Of a stretch of DNA of 64,000 bases, positions 8,352 through 62,663 are shown one piece after another. A program made the translations under genes and the position numbers. This DNA is from Streptacidiphilus melanogenes. GTDB taxonomy: Bacteria; Actinomycetota; Actinomycetes; Streptomycetales; Streptomycetaceae. Location of the stretch: positions 55,694 through 119,693 of the forward strand of contig NZ_BBPP01000024.1 in the NCBI RefSeq assembly GCF_000787835.1. Reading direction: 5' to 3'. How positions within the stretch are numbered: the first letter of the stretch is position 1; every line of letters starts with the position of its first letter. Below the pieces are notes generated by a model. That model was not told the DNA's origin and made no database searches. It was given only the letters and a program-made list of their open reading frames with translations.

Positions 8352-11300
8352 GTGAGCCACAACGAGGCAGCTCCAGGTGCCGGTAGCGCACCCCAGGTCC
8401 GGCCTGCAGGTCGGCTCTCCCTGAGCAACCGACGCCTGCCCTTCAAGCTGATCGCCATCCTCCTGGTTCCCGTCGTCGCGGCCCTGGCCTTCGCCGGCCT
8501 GCGGGTGCAGAGCTCGGTCACGAGCTGGCGGAACGCCCAGGACGCGGAGAAGACGGCGAAACTGGTCGAGGCCGCGGCCGCCGTCGAAGAAGACATCGAC
8601 CTGGAACGCAACGGTTCCCTTCCCTACCTGATGACGCCGGCCGAGGCGCAGAAGCCCAACGCGACGGTCACCGCCCTGCAGAGCACGACCAACGCTGCGA
8701 TCGACCACTTCAAGCAGCTGGCCGCGAACGCGCCGAACATCGGCCACGTCCGGACGCGCGTCTCGGATGCCCTGAAGGAACTGCAGGGCATCGACACGAT
8801 GCGGAAGATGAACTACAGCCAGCCGGGCACCTCGATCGAGGTGAAGTACTCCTCGCTCACCTCCGCGCTCCAGGGTCTCGACAACGAGCTGGTCTTCGGC
8901 AACGGCAGCAGCATCAACTCCGACGGCCGCGCGATCTACGCGATCACCCTGGCCAAGGACGCCGACTCGATCGTGCAGGCCATCGTGCTGCACATGCTGC
9001 TGGAGAAGTACGAGCCGGACGGCGACCCGAAGAGCGCGGCCTCCCAGGCCTACGGCAGCCAGCAGCTCGGCACCTACGCCTACTACTACCTCGAGGGCAT
9101 CGCCCAGCAGGAGTTCACCAACGCCGCCGACCCGACGTTCGTCGCCGCGCTGAACCAGGGCCTGCAGAACGTGCAGGCGGCCATGGAGAACGCCTCCCAG
9201 CAGGCCGCGGCCGCGGCCCAGGCCAACGGCGGCAAGAGCCAGAAGCCGCTGACCATCGACCAGATGGTCGCGCTCATGTACACCGCCACCTCGTCGAAGG
9301 CCGCGAGGGCCGCGGGCGTCACGCCCGCGCTGTGGACCAACGAGACCAGCGCCGTGTTCGACGCGCTGCGCACCGTCGAGAAGAAGCTGATCGCCGACGC
9401 GGTGAACCAGTCCTCGACCGCGGCGGACAACGCCCGCAACGACGCCATCATGAACGGCGCCATCGTGCTCGTGGCGGTGCTCCTGGCCGGCCTGGTGACC
9501 ACGCTCGTCGCCCGCTCGATGATCGGCAACATGCGCCGCCTGCAGCGTGGCGCCCAGCAGGTCGCCCACGAGCGCCTGCCCGACCTGGTGCGCCAGCTCT
9601 CCAAGACCGACCCGGGCAAGGTGGACCTCACGGTCGCCCCGATCCAGGTCGCCGGCAAGGACGAGATCGCCGAGGTCGCCCGCGCCTTCGACGAGGTCCA
9701 CCGCGAGGCCATCCGACTCGCCTCCGAGCAGGCCATGCTCCGTGGCAACGTCAACGCGATCTTCACCAACCTCTCGCGCCGCTCGCACGGCCTGATCGAA
9801 CGCCAGCTGGCACTGATCACGGACCTGGAGAACAACGAGGCCGACCCGGACCAGTTGGAGAACCTCTTCAAGCTGGACCACCTCGCCACCCGCATGCGCC
9901 GCAACGGCGACAACCTGCTGGTTCTGGCGGGCGAGGACCCCGGCCGCTCCTGGGGTGAGCCGATCCCGCTGGTGGACGTGCTCCGCGCGGCCGCCTCCGA
10001 GGTGGAGCAGTACGAGCGCATCGAACTGGCCGGCATACCCGAGACCGACGTCGTCGGTCCCGCCGTCACCGACCTCGTGCACCTGCTGGCCGAGTTGCTG
10101 GAGAACGCCACCACCTTCTCCAGCCCGCAGACCAAGGTCCGGGTCACCGCGACCCGCCTGCCCGACCAGCGCGTGCTGGTCGAGATCCACGACAAGGGCA
10201 TCGGCCTCACCGCCGAGGACTTCGCAGAGATCAACGCGAAGCTGGCCGAGCCGCCGACGGTGGACGCCTCCGTCTCCCGGCAGATGGGCCTCTTCGTGGT
10301 CGGCCGCCTGGCCGAGCGCCACGGCATCCGCGTCCAGCTGCGCCCCTCCGGCGAGTCCGCCGGCACCACCTCGCTGGTCATGCTGCCCGAGCGGCTGACC
10401 CAGGTCGCCGGTGTCGCGCAGCCCGAGGAGCAGTTCACCGTCTCCCGCATCTACCCGGAGTCCGCCCAGGGCGCCGAGATGCCGGGCATGCGCACCGCGA
10501 GCGAGCTGGGCTTCGACGACAGCCGCTACGACCGGGCCCTGGGCGCCGGCGACCAGGCCTCCGCGCTCGACTCGGTGCAGCGCTCGCTGCGTCTCGGCCA
10601 GCGCCGCAACGCGGCCGCGCTGGAGCCGGGCGAGCCGTTCGACCCCGCCGCCTTCCACAACGGCCAGGCGCCCGCCGAGTACGGCGACTACGGCTCCGGT
10701 CAGGACTACGGCAACCGCGGCTACGACCAGAACTTCGAGCAGAACGCCGAAGCCCAGTACCGCTCCGAGTTCGGCACGCAGTTCGGCTCCGAGCCCGGCA
10801 ACGACTACTCCGGCGCCGGCGAGTACGGCGGCGGCAACGGCTACGGCGGGCAGTTCGGCGCGGAGCCCGCGACCGGCCACCCGCAGGAGTCCGGCTTCGA
10901 GACCGGGCGCTACACCTCGCAGCACTTCGAGGCGGGCGTGGCGGACCAGGGCGGCTACGGCCAGGACTACGCCGAGGACACCTACTTCACCCCCGGCTCC
11001 ACCCCGGGCATGCAGCACTACGGCACCTCCGCACCGGCCTACGAACCCGGCCCGGCCCCCACGCAGGGCGCACAGCCGCCCGCCACGGGCCCCGGCGGGC
11101 TGCCGACCCGGCGCCCCGGCGCCGCGCTCGGCGGCAACGCGATCGGCAGCCAGGGGGCCGGCGAGCGTCCCAACTGGTTCACCGGCGCCAGGGAGACCGG
11201 CCAGACGACCAGCGCCATGCCGGTCATGCCGCCCTCCAACGGCCGCCCCGCGGCCGCGCTGCCGGCGGCCGGTCAGAGCGGTGCCGCGGCCCGGGAGATC

Positions 11301-44504: not shown

Positions 44505-44801
44505 TCAGTCCTCCCCGAGGATCTGGGGGACGCGGAAGCGCTGCTCTTCCGCGGCGGGCGCGGCGGCCAGCACCTCGTCGGGACGGAGCGAGGGGCGGAC
44601 CTCGTCGGCGCGCATGACGTTGGTCAGCGGCAGCGGGTGCGAGGTCGGCGGAACGTCTTCGGCGGCGATCTCGCTGACGCGGGCGACCGCGTCCACGATG
44701 TCGTTCAGCTGCTCGGCGAAGTGGTCAAGCTCTTCGCTCTTGAGCTCCAGCCGCGACAGCCGGGCGAGGTGGGCGACCTCCTCGCGCGTAATGCCAGGCA
44801 T
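44505..44801 (-). CDS. gatC: Asp/Glu-tRNA amidotransferase subunit C
   Basis: A 98-residue GatC, the belt subunit stabilising GatA-Gat[37 protein letters not shown] at the N-terminus, then [16 protein letters not shown]. First gene of the gat operon. The region upstream (44802-44973) carries its promoter and a REP-like element that separates it from the lasso cluster. Confidence 0.96.
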
Positions 44802-44909: not shown

Positions 44910-45010
44910 GGGGCGCAGGGAACTGCGCGAGAAACCACCCGGAGCGGACGCCCCTGCTCGTTCGGCACGCCGTCTAGGCGGGTGACTTGTCGCGCGGTTC
45001 CCCGCGCCCC
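44910..45010. repeat. REP-like palindromic element, copy 2
   Basis: Terminal inverted arms GGGGCGCAGGGAACTGCGCGA (44910-44930) and, reversed, GGGGCGCGGGGAACCGCGCGA (44990-45010), 19 of 21 bases matching. The right arm runs into the coding sequence of the lasso B2 gene, whose stop codon (44974-44976) lies inside the element. Confidence 0.85.
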
Positions 45011-45423
45011 GGGGCAGGTGTCACGCTGAGCAAGGTTCGGAAGTAGCCCGACGGGTGGGGTTCGCCCACCGGTTCGCCGTCGACCTGGATCCAGGCGTGG
45101 GCCGCGAAGGGGTGCGTGCGCACCCCCGTGCACCAGGTCGGCCAGCTCCCCCGCATGCGGCACAGCAGCGCGGCGGCGATGGAGCGTTGGAGGCAGTTGT
45201 TGCCCGCGCAGCGCATGCTCACGGCCACGATCTCGTCCCGTGCCCGTTGTGCCTCTTCTTCGCTCGCGGGCCTGCCGCCGCGACGGGCGAACTGAAGGAC
45301 CTGGCGGAGCCGCGCGGGCTTGACCCGCGCCAGGACGCGGGCCGCGGCGACGGCGAGCAGCGGCAGCGCGCGGTGCCGGACGGGGAGCGTGGCCCGGTGG
45401 TCGAGGGACATCTGCACGCTCAC
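44974..45423 (-). CDS. Lasso peptide biosynthesis B2 protein (leader peptidase)
   Basis: A 149-residue transglutaminase-like protease of the lasso B2 family, which cuts the leader from the precursor. The catalytic triad region is clear: [19 protein letters not shown] holds the nucleophilic Cys (about residue 78), and [18 protein letters not shown] holds the His (about residue 108) and Asp. GTG start, overlapping the B1 stop by GTGA. Its last dozen codons (…[11 protein letters not shown]) are written in the right arm of a REP-like element, so the natural C-terminus may have been replaced by that insertion. All catalytic residues are upstream of it. Confidence 0.93.
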
Positions 45424-45671
45424 GGCAGCACCAGCTCCGCCGACGCCAGCTGTGCCAGCACTGCCTTGACGTCGTCCTTCGCACGCTCCGCGCCGATGCC
45501 GTGGGCGGCCGCGAGCCCGTCCGCGACCTGGGCGGGAGCGTGGCCGTCGAGAAGGCCGCGGAGGACCTCTCGGCCGGTGAGGTTCAGCTGGAAGTAGCGG
45601 CCGGTGCGGCCGTGCAGGAGGACGGTGCCGTCGTCGGTGTCGGTCATCGAGACATCGGGGTGGAGCCGCAT
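45420..45671 (-). CDS. Lasso peptide biosynthesis B1 protein (PqqD-like RRE)
   Basis: An 83-residue PqqD-fold RiPP recognition element: LHPDVSMTDTDDGTVLLHGRTGRYFQLN (beta strands) and a helical second half, LTGREVLRGLLDGHAPAQVADGLAAAHG. It binds the precursor leader and hands it to the B2 protease and C cyclase. The YxxPxLVEVGxF segment in the leader is the usual contact. It sits three bases after the C gene and overlaps B2. Confidence 0.92.
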   Translation of the reverse strand: MRLHPDVSMTDTDDGTVLLHGRTGRYFQLNLTGREVLRGLLDGHAPAQVADGLAAAHGIGAERAKDDVKAVLAQLASAELVLP

Positions 45672-45674
45672 GGA

Positions 45675-47489
45675 TCAGTCCTTGGGAGCGGGACGGGACG
45701 GAGGGAGGGAGCGGAGCCAGGTCTCGCAGCCGACGAGGCTCTCCAACGCCTGGACGGCGCTGTTGTCGGCCTGCGGGCCGGTGAGGCGGACCCGCAGGGC
45801 GTCAGGGTCGAGCAGGCCGCGCCCGGCCAGCCGGGAGTCGGGGCCGAGCAGGTCGAGCAGCGCGGGCAGGTGGGTCCGCAGCCCGCGGCGGACGTCCTCG
45901 CCGAACTCGCCCTTGGTGGCGCGGGTGCGGACGGGCTCCGGGACGATGCCGCGCATCGCCTCCGCCAGCAGGGGTTTGAAGCGCCACGGTCCGGCGTGCG
46001 CGTCAGGGCGCACCCGCAGGGCGGCGTCGACGACCCGGTCGTCGAGCAGGGGCGCCTCGAGGGCGATGCCGCGTTCCGCGTAGAGGTCGGCGAGCAGGCG
46101 ATAGGTGCTGGTGTTGGAGCGGATCACCACCAGCGTCTGATGTGAGCCCAGGTTCGCGGCGAGCGGCGACGCGGTCGCCGCGGTGCGGCGCAGCGCCGCG
46201 CGGGCGAGCTCGGCACCGGCGGGGGTGATCCAGTCGGGGGCGCGGATCGGACCGAGTCCCCAGCCGAGGGCGGCGCGGCGCAGCGGCGGAGGCGGCTCGG
46301 TCAGGACGTCCGCCTCGGCGGCCCACCAGCCGGCGAAGGAGCTCGGGCGCAGCAGCTCGGCAAAGGTCGCCCGCAACGGCCAGCGCCGCAGCGCGGCGTG
46401 CGCGCGCAGGTGCCGCAGCGCGGTGACCGGGCGGCGGCGCAGCAGCGGGTGCAGGTAGCCGGGCATGGGTGTGAACAGCTCGTCGCCGCCGTGGCCGGAA
46501 AGGTGCCGAACCGATCCGTGTTCGGCCAGCAGCGCCACACTGCGCCGGATCCGGGCGGTGGCCCGGGTGAGCGGGCTCGGCATTTCCGCGCTCACCGGAT
46601 TTTCCGCCTCGGCGAACATGTCCGGGAGTTCGGCCTGCGGGACGACGAGGTGCTCCGCGCGGCCGAGTTCTTTCATGGCCAATTCCGCGAAAACCGTGTC
46701 GTCGTTCCCTTCCTCGGCCTCGCCCCAGCGAAACGTGAGGATTTCCGGATCCTCCCTGGCCGCGAGAAAGCAGACGGAGCTGGAATCGAGCCCGCCGGAG
46801 AGGTCCGAGCTCAGCCGGCCATTTTCCGGGCGTTTTCCGTGGGTGGCCGCGAGCAGCGCCTCGCGCACCGCGGCAACCCCGTCGGCCAGGGACAGTTCCG
46901 GCTTCGGCGGCTGCCACCAGCGGACCTCTTCGAGGGCGTCCGCGTCCCATTCGAGCGCGTGGTCCGGCGCGAGCGCGGCGACGCCCGACCAGAGGCTGCG
47001 GGCGTTGGCCGGGTAGGGCAACTGGAGTCCGCAGACGGCGCGCAGCGCGAGCGCCTCCTCGTCCAGGCCGGCGCCGGTGAGCGCGGCGAGCAGGTCGGCG
47101 CGGTCGGCGGCGAGGGCGACGGCGCCGGCCCGGGTGTGGAAGAGCCGCCGCAACCCGGACGCGCTGCCCTGGAACCGGGACCAGTCGGGCAGGGAAACGC
47201 CCAGGTGGCAACTGCCGCGCAGGCCGACAAGGGCCCGGGCGGCGTCGGCGGGCCCCGTGATCCGCCCGGCGGTCTGCGCCAACCGGGCGCGGCTGGCCGG
47301 CGCGTCGCCGACGACCACGAGACGCACCGGGCCGGACTCGACGACCGTCACCGCGTCCGCCGGCCAGCGGCCGACGATCCACGGCCGCCCGGAGGCGTGC
47401 GGGATGACGCGGGCGCCGTCGAGCGGGACGCGTGGGAAGAGCCGCTCGGCCTGCGGCCGGTCCGGAAGGACCACGAACCCGGAGCTCAT
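45675..47489 (-). CDS. Lasso peptide macrolactam synthetase (C protein)
   Basis: A 604-residue asparagine-synthetase-like cyclase. ATG 47489 (MSSGFVVLPDRPQAERLFP) fits the family start; an upstream in-frame GTG overlaps the precursor stop. The N-terminal glutaminase-like half lacks the Cys2 nucleophile, as in other lasso cyclases. The ATP-pyrophosphatase half has the P-loop LSSDLSGGLDSSSVCFLA (about residue 228) and LSGHGGDELFTPM (about 335). It adenylates the Asp8 side chain of the core and joins it to the Gly1 amine. Bases 46560-46820 are poorer in GC than the housekeeping neighbours, consistent with transfer. Confidence 0.95.
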   Translation of the reverse strand: MSSGFVVLPDRPQAERLFPRVPLDGARVIPHASGRPWIVGRWPADAVTVVESGPVRLVVVGDAPASRARLAQTAGRITGPADAARALVGLRGSCHLGVSLPDWSRFQGSASGLRRLFHTRAGAVALAADRADLLAALTGAGLDEEALALRAVCGLQLPYPANARSLWSGVAALAPDHALEWDADALEEVRWWQPPKPELSLADGVAAVREALLAATHGKRPENGRLSSDLSGGLDSSSVCFLAAREDPEILTFRWGEAEEGNDDTVFAELAMKELGRAEHLVVPQAELPDMFAEAENPVSAEMPSPLTRATARIRRSVALLAEHGSVRHLSGHGGDELFTPMPGYLHPLLRRRPVTALRHLRAHAALRRWPLRATFAELLRPSSFAGWWAAEADVLTEPPPPLRRAALGWGLGPIRAPDWITPAGAELARAALRRTAATASPLAANLGSHQTLVVIRSNTSTYRLLADLYAERGIALEAPLLDDRVVDAALRVRPDAHAGPWRFKPLLAEAMRGIVPEPVRTRATKGEFGEDVRRGLRTHLPALLDLLGPDSRLAGRGLLDPDALRVRLTGPQADNSAVQALESLVGCETWLRSLPPSRPAPKD

Positions 47490-47572
47490 GTGCTGCTGCG
47501 ACCACCGTTTCCGGATCGACCGCGGACCGGACCCCGAAAGGGCCGGCCCGCGGCGCGGATCGTCTCGACGAA

Positions 47573-47701
47573 TTACCACTTCATGTTGAAGAACCAGTCC
47601 GGAACGGTTCCCCAGCCGCCGAGGGTGTCCTCATTGAACTCGCCGACCTCGACCAGTGCCGGTGCCATGTACTCGTTCGACTGCTCGGTGGTGTCAGCCA
47701 C
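47573..47701 (-). CDS. Lasso peptide precursor (A)
   Basis: A 42-residue precursor from GTG 47701, with GGGAGG five bases upstream. The leader (residues 1-27) contains the recognition segment YMAPALVEVGEFNEDT, with the invariant Thr26 at position -2 of the cleavage site. The core (28-42) is GGWGTVPDWFFNMKW: Gly1, and Asp8 as the only acidic residue, predict an 8-residue macrolactam ring and a 7-residue tail. There are no cysteines, so this is class II. Tail plugs could be W9/F10/F11 or W15. It is the first gene of an A-C-B1-B2 operon with a promoter about 60 bp upstream. Confidence 0.93.
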   Translation of the reverse strand: MADTTEQSNEYMAPALVEVGEFNEDTLGGWGTVPDWFFNMKW

Positions 47702-47878: not shown

Positions 47879-49381
47879 TCAGCGCTGGTGCGGGGCGGTG
47901 ACGCGGCCACGGAGCCAGGCGGTGGCCTGGTCGGCCGGCATGGCCTTGGAGACCAGCCATCCCTGGACCGCGTCGCAGCCCATGCCCTGGAGGCGCTTCC
48001 AGGTCTCGTCGTCCTCGACGCCCTCGGCGACGACGGTCAGGCCGAGCGAGTGCGCGAGCTGGACGCTGCAGCGCACCACGGCCGCGTCGTGGTCGTCGGC
48101 GACCATGCGGCTGACGAAGGAGCGGTCGATCTTCAGCTCGCCGACCGGGAGCCGGCGCAGCCGGACCAGGGAGGAGTAGCCGGTGCCGAAGTCGTCCAGG
48201 GACATCCCGACGCCGTGGCCGCGCAGCTCCTCCAGCGTCTCGGCGGCCCGCTGCCCGTCCTCCAGCAGCAGCCGCTCGGTGATCTCCAACTGGAGCGCAC
48301 CGGCCGGCACCCCGTGCCGTTCGAGCCGGCCGGCGACGCCCGCCGCGAAGCCGGGACGCAGGACGTCACGCGGCGAGATGTTGACCGCGACCGGCACCTC
48401 GATGCCCTCCGCGCGCCACCGTGCGAGCTGGGAGACGGCGGCCTCCAGCACGTAGTCCGTCAGCTGGGGCATCAGACCGCTGGATTCAGCGAGCCCGACG
48501 AACTCCTCGGGACTGACCGGCCCGCGCCCGGCGCGCGACCAGCGCACCAGCGCCTCGAGACCGACGACGCTCCCGTCGAAGGCGACCTTGGGCTGGTAGT
48601 GCACCTGCACCTCGCCCAGGTCGAGCGCGCGACGCAACTCGCCGAGCAGCCCCAGCCGCAGCGGCGTGTCCTCCTCCTGCCCCGGCTGATAGAGGGTCAC
48701 CCCGGCGCGGCTGCGCTGCGCGTGGGCCATGGCGATGTCGGCGCGGCGCAGCAGCGACTCGGCGTCAGCCGCGTGGTCGGGCAGGACCGCTACACCGGTG
48801 CTGGACTCCAGGATCAGCTGCAGGCCGCCGAACTGGATCGGCGCGGCGACCTCGGCGGCGAAGGCCCGGGCGAGCCCCAGCAGCGCGGCGGTCTCCTCCG
48901 GCGGCTCGGGCACGAGTACGGCGAACTCGTCCCCGCCGAGGCGCGCCACCAGCGCACCGGTGTCGAGCGCGAGGGCCTGCAGCCGCTGGGCCACCTGGAC
49001 CAGCAACCGGTCGCCGGCGAGATGCCCCAGAGTGTCGTTCAGGGAGCGGAAGCGGTCCAGGTCGATCAGGACCAGCGCGTGCCGGGCCCGCTCGGTCGCC
49101 GCCTGCACGGCGGCGAGGCGTAGTGCGTACCGGTTCGGCAGGCCGGTGAGCTGGTCGGTCACCCCCTCGCGCACCCGCTGCCGGCCGAACCACCAGGCGG
49201 CGAACAGCACCGCGATGGGCACGCCGAACAGCGGGAGCAGGATGGGCTCGTGTCGCGCCACCACATCGGCCAGCGGCACCAACGGCGCCGCCCCGGCCAA
49301 ACCCACGCCGAGGAAGACCGCCGTTCTGACGGCAAACCCGGCACGGTCAGGACCCAGCACTGACCGACGCGTGCGCTCCAT
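47879..49381 (-). CDS. rmdB: RmdB-like GGDEF-EAL c-di-GMP phosphodiesterase
   Basis: A 500-residue protein from ATG 49381, with AGAGG upstream; the longer open frame is non-coding. Two N-terminal membrane segments (about residues 16-66), then a GGDEF domain with intact RLGGDEFAVLV (about 150), and an EAL domain with all hallmarks: GLEALVRW, NISPRDVL, LDDFGTGYSSL, LKIDRSFV, VAEGVED and DAVQGWLVS. It should hydrolyse c-di-GMP, in contrast to the cyclase-like CdgC protein 11 kb away. It lies beside ligA, as SCO5495/rmdB does in S. coelicolor (recalled). Confidence 0.9.
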   Translation of the reverse strand: MERTRRSVLGPDRAGFAVRTAVFLGVGLAGAAPLVPLADVVARHEPILLPLFGVPIAVLFAAWWFGRQRVREGVTDQLTGLPNRYALRLAAVQAATERARHALVLIDLDRFRSLNDTLGHLAGDRLLVQVAQRLQALALDTGALVARLGGDEFAVLVPEPPEETAALLGLARAFAAEVAAPIQFGGLQLILESSTGVAVLPDHAADAESLLRRADIAMAHAQRSRAGVTLYQPGQEEDTPLRLGLLGELRRALDLGEVQVHYQPKVAFDGSVVGLEALVRWSRAGRGPVSPEEFVGLAESSGLMPQLTDYVLEAAVSQLARWRAEGIEVPVAVNISPRDVLRPGFAAGVAGRLERHGVPAGALQLEITERLLLEDGQRAAETLEELRGHGVGMSLDDFGTGYSSLVRLRRLPVGELKIDRSFVSRMVADDHDAAVVRCSVQLAHSLGLTVVAEGVEDDETWKRLQGMGCDAVQGWLVSKAMPADQATAWLRGRVTAPHQR

Positions 49382-60209: not shown

Positions 60210-61532
60210 TCAGCTCTCCGTGTCGGCCTTCGGCGCGGCGCTCTCCTCGGAGGCCTCCTCGGAGGTCTCCTCCGCAGCAGCCTCCTCGGCGGCAGCCTCG
60301 TCCGTCGACTCCTCGGCGGCGGTCTCGGCAGCCTCGGCGGCCGGAGCGTCCTCGACCACGACGGCCTCCGCAGCCGTGGCCTCGGCCTTGTCGGCCTCCT
60401 TCTCCGCGGCGGCGGTCTCGGCGGCCTTCGCCACCGCGTCGCTCGCGGCCTGGGAGACGGTGATCGTCTCGGCCACGACGGCCGACGACGGCGCGTTCTC
60501 CGGGAAGTGGCAGGCCACCTGGTGGCCGGTCTTCAGCGCCACCAGCGGCGGCTCGACCTCGGCGCACTTGTCCGTCGCCTTCCAGCAGCGGGTGCGGAAG
60601 TGGCAGCCGGAGGGCGGGTTGACCGGGGAGGGCACGTCGCCGGTGAGCAGGATCCGACTGCTCTCGCCCTTGCGGGTCGGGTCCGGCACCGGCACCGCGG
60701 ACATCAGCGCGTTGGTGTACGGGTGCATCGGCGACGCGTAGAGGGAGTCCCGGTCGGCGATCTCGACGATCTTGCCCAGGTACATCACCGCGACGCGGTC
60801 GGACACGTGGCGCACCACGGACAGGTCGTGGGCGATCACCACGTAGGTGAGGCCCAGCTCCTGCTGGAGGTCGTCCAGCAGGTTGACGACCTGCGCCTGG
60901 ATCGACACGTCCAGCGCCGAGACCGGCTCGTCCGCGACGATCATCTTCGGCCGCAGGGCCAGCGCGCGGGCGATGCCGATGCGCTGACGCTGGCCGCCGG
61001 AGAACTCGTGCGGGTAGCGGTTGTAGTGCTCCGGGTTGAGACCACAGGTCTGGAGCAGGTCCTGGACCGCGGCCTTGATGCCGTTCTCGGTCTTGATGCC
61101 CTGCAGGCGGAACGGCGCCCCGACGATCGTGCCGACCGTGTGCCTCGGGTTGAGCGAGGAGTACGGGTCCTGGAAGATCATCTGGATGTCGCGCCGGAGC
61201 GGACGCATCTTGGCCGTGTTGAGGTGGGTGATGTCCACCCCCTCGAACGTGACCTTGCCGGAGGTGGGCTCCAGCAGACGGGTGATCAGTCGACCCATGG
61301 TCGACTTGCCGCAGCCGGACTCGCCCACGACGCCGAGGGTCTCGCCCTGGCGGACGTCGAAGGTCAGGCCGTCGACCGCCTGCACGGCGCCGACCTGACG
61401 CTGCAGCAGACCCTTCTTGATCGGGAAGTGCTTGACCAGGTCGGTCACCTGGAGCAGCGCCTGGCCCTCCGAGGCGGCCGGCGCCTTGGGCGCCGGGACG
61501 GTCGCGGTGGCCGTCGAGCTCTCTTCACTCAT
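60210..61532 (-). CDS. Oligopeptide/dipeptide ABC transporter ATPase (DppF/OppF type)
   Basis: A 440-residue ATPase. Walker [16 protein letters not shown] (about residue 70), Q-loop [16 protein letters not shown] signature [16 protein letters not shown], Walker [15 protein letters not shown] and H-loop AHDLSVVRH. An oligopeptide-transporter C-terminal domain with Cys ligands follows ([20 protein letters not shown]). From about residue 345 it carries a roughly 95-residue tail made almost entirely of Ala, Glu, Val, Ser and Asp, absent from typical family members and probably disordered. It starts 30 bases past the DppD stop. Confidence 0.95.
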
Positions 61533-61562
61533 TGTCTCTTCGTCTCCTCGACTTGCTACCGG

Positions 61563-62663
61563 CTAGAGCCGGGGAGCGATCTCCTGGGTGAAGATCTGCT
61601 GACGGACCTCCAGGGGCATGTGACAGGCCGCCAGGTGGTTCTCGCCCACGTTGGTGAGCAGCGGCGTCTCGGTGGTGGACCTGCCCTCGGTGCGGTCCAC
61701 GTAGGGGCAACGCGGGTGGAAGGCGCAGCCGCTCGGCAGGTTGATCAGCGACGGCGGGTTGCCCTTGACCGGGATGAGGCGGTCCTGGAGCTCGCGGTCG
61801 ATGCGCGGCATCGAGCCGAGCAGACCCCAGGTGTAGGGGTGCTCCGGCTCGGTGAAGATCTTGTCCGCCGGCCCCTTCTCCACGCACTTGCCGCCGTACA
61901 TCACCAGGATGTCGTCGGCGAGCTCGGCGACCACGCCGAGGTCGTGCGTGATGATGATGACCGAGGAGCCGAACTCCTTCTGCAGGTCCCGGATCAGGTC
62001 CAGGATCTGCGCCTGCACGGTCACGTCGAGCGCGGTGGTCGGCTCGTCCGCGATCAGCAGCGACGGGTCGTTGGCCAGCGCCATGGCGATCATGGCGCGC
62101 TGGCGCATACCGCCGGAGAACTCGTGCGGGTGCTGGTCCACGCGCTTGTCGGGCTGCGGGATGCCGACGCGGTCCAGCAGCTGGATCGCGTGCTCGCGCG
62201 CGGCCTTCTTCGAGACCTGCGGGTTGTGCTGGCGGTGGCCCTCGGTGATCTGCTGACCCACCGTGTAGTACGGGTGCATCGCGGTCAGCGGGTCCTGGAA
62301 GATCATCGCCATCTTCTGGCCGCGGAGCTTGCGCACCTCGTCCGGGTTGGCGTTGATGAGCTCCTGGCCGTCCAGCCAGATCTCACCGCTGATCTGCGGG
62401 CCGCGCTTCTTGCCGACATTGCGGTGCAGACCCATGATCGACAGCGAGGTCACCGACTTGCCGGAGCCGGACTCGCCCACGATGCCGAGGGTCTTGCCAC
62501 GCTCGAGATCGAAGCTCAGGCCGTCCACGGACTTGACGATGCCGTCGTCCGTCGGGAAGTGGCAGCGCAGGTTGCGGACCGAAAGGAAGGAGGTCGGTGC
62601 GCCCGAGGACGAGGCCGACACGTCGATGACGGCCTCGGTCTTCGCGGAGTCGGACTTGGTCAT
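61563..62663 (-). CDS. Oligopeptide/dipeptide ABC transporter ATPase (DppD/OppD type)
   Basis: A 366-residue ATPase from ATG 62663, overlapping the permease stop as ATGA; the longer frame upstream is the permease region. Walker A GIVGESGSGKSVTSLS (about residue 60), QDPLTAMHPYYTVG, signature EFSGGMRQRAMIAMALAND, Walker B LLIADEPTTALDVT, THDLGVVAE, and the family's Cys-containing end (SGCAFHPRCPYVD, AACHM). Pairs with the DppF-type ATPase. Confidence 0.96.
   Translation of the reverse strand: MTKSDSAKTEAVIDVSASSSGAPTSFLSVRNLRCHFPTDDGIVKSVDGLSFDLERGKTLGIVGESGSGKSVTSLSIMGLHRNVGKKRGPQISGEIWLDGQELINANPDEVRKLRGQKMAMIFQDPLTAMHPYYTVGQQITEGHRQHNPQVSKKAAREHAIQLLDRVGIPQPDKRVDQHPHEFSGGMRQRAMIAMALANDPSLLIADEPTTALDVTVQAQILDLIRDLQKEFGSSVIIITHDLGVVAELADDILVMYGGKCVEKGPADKIFTEPEHPYTWGLLGSMPRIDRELQDRLIPVKGNPPSLINLPSGCAFHPRCPYVDRTEGRSTTETPLLTNVGENHLAACHMPLEVRQQIFTQEIAPRL

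Follow-up and report, generated by a model that had tools for sequence, protein, structure and literature searches.

A stretch of 64,000 nucleotides from Streptacidiphilus melanogenes (contig NZ_BBPP01000024.1, positions 55,694 to 119,693 of the forward strand), hereafter the window, carries a lasso operon of four genes in the order A-C-B1-B2 on its minus strand, at window positions 44974-47701. With high confidence, these four genes are read as a minimal operon whose product is a class II lasso peptide belonging to the RES-701 family. The features of the operon are as follows.

47573..47701, minus strand: A, the precursor peptide gene, 42 codons starting with GTG, the leader being encoded at 47621-47701 and the core at 47576-47620
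47576..47620, minus strand: the core peptide GGWGTVPDWFFNMKW, with the predicted ring Gly1-Asp8, from alignment with RES-701-type precursors
45675..47489, minus strand: C, a lasso macrolactam synthetase (asparagine-synthetase-like) of 604 amino acids, ATG at 47489
45420..45671, minus strand: B1, a PqqD-like leader-recognition protein of 83 amino acids, matching NF033530 lasso_PqqD_Strm (Streptomyces-type PqqD chaperone) at 98.2 bits, cut-off 70
44974..45423, minus strand: B2, a transglutaminase-like leader peptidase of 149 amino acids, matching NF033537 lasso_biosyn_B2 at 119 bits, cut-off 33, and PF13471 at E 1.5e-29

The precursor consists of a leader of 27 residues, MADTTEQSNEYMAPALVEVGEFNEDTL, and a core of 15 residues, GGWGTVPDWFFNMKW, and matches the curated NCBIfam model lasso_leader_L3 (NF033521) at 32.5 bits, the cut-off being 19. 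In five Streptacidiphilus relatives, ATG is found at the place of its GTG start. For C, a start at ATG 47489 is consistent with the relatives, and a 634-amino-acid open reading frame from GTG 47579 is the mechanical longest reading; the protein matches Pfam Asn_synthase (PF00733) at E 2.1e-41, above the Pfam cut-off, and has the motif SGGLDSS at residue 231. The reading frames of B1 and B2 share 4 bases, and Cys77 and His109 of B2 lie within stretches invariant in all 16 aligned B2 rows. The hallmarks of the lasso class, namely a lasso leader, Thr at position -2, Gly1 and an Asp/Glu at positions 7-9, are therefore present in the precursor sequence, and PqqD-like B1, transglutaminase-like B2 and asparagine-synthetase-like C all stand in the same operon. 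A first-pass annotation, made from the letters of the DNA, had proposed an A-C-B1-B2 lasso gene set, which is borne out by the NCBIfam matches of A, B1 and B2 and the Pfam match of C. Its assignment of the product to class II agrees with a core that has no Cys, and its placing of the cleavage after TL, of the ring between Gly1 and Asp8 and of the tail as WFFNMKW also fits the sequence.

The kinship of the core points to RES-701. The RES-701-1 core is GNWHGTAPDWFFNYYW, and RES-701-1 is an endothelin-B-receptor antagonist; aligned to it, GGWGTVPDWFFNMKW has one deletion in the ring and is one residue shorter. Like RES-701, the window peptide has EDTL before Gly1, a ring ending in PD, a tail of the form WFFN..W and class II character, and its cyclase falls in the same clade; it differs in a ring of 8 instead of 9 residues and a core of 15 instead of 16, in Val replacing Ala/Ser before Pro, and in Met-Lys replacing Tyr-Tyr before the last Trp. 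The window core thus has PDWFFN and the C-terminal aromatic residue that mark the RES-701 family, and its 15-residue core and 8-residue ring make it a ring-size variant, not RES-701-1 or -3 themselves. Moreover, the order resA, resC, resB1, resB2 of the res cluster of Streptomyces caniferus, as given in PMC7280977, is that of A-C-B1-B2; introduced into Streptomyces coelicolor M1152, the res cluster yielded RES-701-3 and -4.

When a collection of one genome per species (84,980 species) was scanned at the DNA level for PDWFFNxxW, 16 stretches were found, nine of which are lasso precursors (four in Streptacidiphilus, four in Streptomyces and one in a Streptomycetaceae metagenome-assembled genome, MAG), the other seven being reads in unrelated bacteria. 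These nine, the window precursor and one Tyr-ending variant invisible to the scan make up eleven aligned precursors, in all of which EDTLG and PDWFFN are invariant. The variant, at locus L072 (G008:C57:33000-49000), has the core GGWGNVPDWFFNMIY, the sole one of the eleven to end in Tyr instead of Trp. Among RES-701-type cores, the natural tails MKW, MNW, MIY, YNW and YYW occur. Streptomyces lilacinus (L067; GSHGRSPD) and Streptomyces huiliensis (L068; GSSGRSPD) also have 8-residue rings. In the Streptomyces sioyaensis locus, the precursor has 44 amino acids with a 28-amino-acid leader ending in EDTL; this species is named as having a core identical to that of RES-701-3 in PMC7280977, which writes Asp-8 for RES-701-3, unlike the S. 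sioyaensis stretch GNWHGTSPD, whose Asp is the ninth residue.

From the roles known for these families, a simple route to the product can be proposed. B1 would bind the leader, B2 would cut it after Thr-Leu, and C, with ATP, would activate the side chain of Asp8 and join it to the amine of Gly1 around the threaded tail. The outcome would be an 8-residue ring, the 7-residue tail WFFNMKW and an unmodified C-terminal Trp, and the peptide would presumably be secreted by a transporter encoded outside the cluster. The computed [M+H]+ of the GGWGTVPDWFFNMKW lasso is 1809.8206, so the value near 1809.82 calculated by hand in the first-pass annotation was correct; as a control, the same script gave 2080.8378 for the [M+Na]+ of RES-701-3, the published calculated value being 2080.8377. 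Were the core to begin at Leu instead, it would have 16 residues, the ring would join Leu1 to Asp9, and [M+H]+ would be 1922.905; the 9-residue ring of RES-701 would be regained. This start would place Thr at -1, and the RES-701-3 precursors, which have the same EDTL-G junction, are cut before Gly to give a 28-amino-acid leader and a 16-amino-acid core; the cores of S. lilacinus and S. huiliensis also give 8-residue rings when cut before Gly. A start at Leu is accordingly so improbable as to be nearly negligible, and the core is best read as beginning at Gly1.

A product of this kind has probably been made already. Nine refactored lasso clusters have been expressed in E. coli, and for one of them, Las-6 from S. 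melanogenes, a mass consistent with a mature lasso was found (PMC9576775). In the draft genome of the window, lasso B2 has one match and the cyclase has one match at E 0.001. In addition, PMC7601586 lists one lassopeptide cluster each in S. anmyonensis, S. jiangxiensis, S. melanogenes, S. neutrinimicus and S. pinicola among 11 Streptacidiphilus; this fits the carriers found here, of which one, the sixth, S. fuscans, is absent from that listing. Las-6 and the window cluster thus share the species and the single lasso cluster found in the genome, and the mass reported for Las-6 fits a mature lasso with one water lost. From the uniqueness of the lasso cluster in S. melanogenes, the window cluster is very probably that of Las-6; if so, a product of the predicted mass has been made in E. 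coli by others.

This bears on the novelty that the first-pass annotation had implied. The window core closely resembles RES-701-1, and the cluster has very probably been expressed as Las-6, so most of that novelty is probably taken; what stands is that the exact core GGWGTVPDWFFNMKW was not found in the literature searched. Nor did that literature yield an earlier statement linking the window peptide to RES-701. The link to RES-701, the 8-residue rings and the natural tails listed above are what is new here.

The cyclase tree, built from 22 rows (without the broken cyclase of locus L069, and with L095 as a fragment covering 32% of columns), places the 11 RES-type rows in one clade with support 98/99 and the anantin-type rows outside it. 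Within the clade, six Streptacidiphilus rows (100/99) stand beside five Streptomyces/MAG rows (99/99). Inside the latter branch fall S. lilacinus and S. huiliensis with their 8-residue rings, which implies that ring size changed at least twice on this tree; for the direction of the change, 11 rows are too few to tell.

Several observations weigh against the RES-701 assignment or against parts of it. C is under the cut-off of both NCBIfam macrolactam/lasso cyclase models that it matched (235 of 300 bits for NF033561, 38.7 of 525 for the other). In a search confined to the window and five Streptacidiphilus loci, ResF found no match, and ResD found only two distant partial ABC-type ones (28-31% identity), both in the window at 60672-62582, away from the cluster. 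No fragments from tandem mass spectrometry are reported for Las-6 in PMC9576775. The leader motif VEVGEFNEDTLG is common to the window A and to anantin-type precursors, and the identity of C is 57.9-61.8% with the five RES-type cyclases of the Streptomyces/MAG branch and 54.5 and 57.4% with two anantin-type ones, the higher of these being near the lowest RES-type row; with ranges so close, identity alone would not decide kinship.

The last two of these points would suit another reading, in which the peptide is an unremarkable member of the anantin-leader group among Streptomycetaceae lasso peptides and came by its RES-701-like tail through convergence, not descent. Out of a larger group, 394 Streptomycetaceae genomes were run against a model of the RES-type precursors, which matched 34, and a precursor was readable in 24 of the 30 loci listed; among those 24, eight have a PDWF core (six Streptacidiphilus, the MAG and G019) and seven have anantin-like cores behind nearly the same leader. 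The cores at L031-L035, L037 and L038 are those which we take to be of the anantin type. Their clusters (with cyclases L090 and L091) resemble that of the window in the leader VEVGEFNEDTLG or one near it, in related B1, B2 and C, and in Asp at core position 8, and differ in a core of the form GFIGWG.DIFGHY..., without PDWFFN, and in a cyclase outside the RES-type clade. As proof of kinship with RES-701, the leader as such was weighed and set aside, since anantin-type precursors have the same one; it marks a wider group, within which the core marks the RES-701 family, and the argument for kinship therefore rests on the core together with the cyclase tree. Convergence is made very improbable by the single clade of RES-type cyclases at 98/99, by the invariance of PDWFFN and of the TLG junction across all 11 precursors, and by the cyclases of all nine lasso clusters from the PDWFFNxxW scan, which fall in that clade. 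Descent within the RES-701 family is thus preferred.

The window cluster differs from the res cluster in having no resD or resF beside it and no ResE match in its genome. ResE has been proposed to hydroxylate the last Trp (PMC7280977). With a query of 209 amino acids from the S. sioyaensis locus, ResE has no match at E 0.001 in the window genome; of the other 13 genomes of the genus, 12 likewise gave none. In the remaining one, G004, a ResE homologue of 50% identity (L089; G004:C33:112384-113004) sits on a contig separate from that of the lasso cluster. Among eleven loci (the window and ten others), ResE is present at three, L065, L067 and L068, ResF at one (L065) and a nearly whole ResD also at L065 only; ResD has a distant partial match in L066 too. 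L067 (core GSHGRSPDWFFNYNW) and L068 (core GSSGRSPDWFFNYNW) have 8-residue rings and YNW tails, yet a ResE match at the locus.

As no ResE match exists in the genome, a plain C-terminal Trp is expected. The product might nevertheless be further modified by an enzyme encoded outside the cluster, for example through hydroxylation of the last Trp, as known from RES-701-2 and -4: both of these peptides contain 7-hydroxy-Trp (PMC7280977), the citrulassin deiminase is encoded apart from the citrulassin cluster, and the role of ResE is itself a proposal. Such modification is judged unlikely, because the window genome has no ResE match and only one genome of the 14 in the genus, G004, has any; the MAG locus L066, whose core equals the RES-701-1 core, shows no ResE match either. 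An unmodified Trp remains the preferred prediction.

The cluster is inherited at one chromosomal site. It occurs in six of 14 Streptacidiphilus genomes, and in the window and all five other carriers the order A-C-B1-B2 is kept between the same two genes, as the first-pass annotation, which had put the insertion between gatC and rmdB-ligA, described for the window. The flanks are given below.

44505..44801, minus strand: gatC, the flank downstream of the insertion
47879..49381, minus strand: an rmdB-like GGDEF-EAL gene (the name rmdB comes from the first-pass annotation), the flank upstream of the insertion

In the eight genomes of the genus without the cluster, the distance between the gatC and rmdB matches is ~130 to 360 bases, and the stretch from one to the other holds no match to C, B1 or B2 in any of them; one of the eight, G013, is 76% complete, and its gatC-rmdB site was nonetheless seen. 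The mean ratio of nonsynonymous to synonymous differences (pN/pS) over 15 pairs is 0.187 for A (the L072 row lacking its last two codons, where the local alignment ended), 0.405 for C, 0.354 for B1 and 0.296 for B2, and 0.064 for gatC, 0.157 for gatA, 0.166 for rmdB and 0.252 for ligA; C, B1 and B2 are thus above all four flanking genes examined. The constant gene order in carriers and the low pN/pS argue that the cluster is not a matter of chance. Judged from its sequence, this operon of the RES-701 family is genuine, intact and conserved, its genes being kept by purifying selection. G009, which lacks the cluster, is placed among the carriers by the rmdB tree, though support there is no higher than 82/79; the history of the site may be a single insertion followed by clean loss in G009, or two insertions.

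It may tentatively be suggested that RES-701 peptides with a ring contracted to 8 residues and with differing tails are natural products of Streptacidiphilus and of a few Streptomyces; if the endothelin B receptor is still bound, they would form a natural structure-activity series. RES-701-3 and -4 inhibit binding of endothelin-1 to this receptor with half-maximal inhibitory concentrations of ~5-10 nM (PMC7280977). If the suggestion holds, a ready-made natural series would be at hand for a lasso peptide acting on a human receptor, and the part read by the natural target would be revealed by the strict keeping of PDWFFN in rings of reduced size. One paper, to go by its title, reportedly describes a receptor structure with a lasso peptide bound. 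The window cluster and its relatives supply natural variants, differing in ring size and in the three C-terminal residues, for a direct comparison with RES-701 at the receptor, and they may help to find the natural role of RES-701-type peptides. As known so far, the window peptide is a useful relative that brings no new principle.

A few minor observations concern the operon and related loci. A promoter scan gave 0 promoter-like sites (shuffles 0.1), and a terminator scan gave two terminator-like sites (shuffles 1.0, standard deviation 0.8), both within genes, so that nothing clear emerged. A GC-rich hairpin in the A-C spacer (window 47490-47572), present in four other Streptacidiphilus clusters too, was considered, and no claim is made for it: its folding has z = -1.20, 19 of 200 shuffles fold equally well, and a compensatory change is seen in 0 of 21 pairs among five Streptacidiphilus sequences (G004/L074, whose spacer differs, being omitted). 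At L067, the B1 match (~10039-10227) ends at residue 63 of 83. L069 (G019:C11:515000-530000) holds at ~9104-10804 a RES-701-like precursor with the core GSWNGTAPDWFISYYW, together with B1 and B2; its cyclase matches ResC residues 1-82 and 413-613 only, as though ~330 residues had been lost, which suggests a decaying cluster. G013, a member of the genus without the RES-type cluster, carries an unrelated lasso-type precursor (L051; core start GPGGENLRW) with a partial cyclase match of 39% identity (L095) at G013:C4, ~8719000-8725000.

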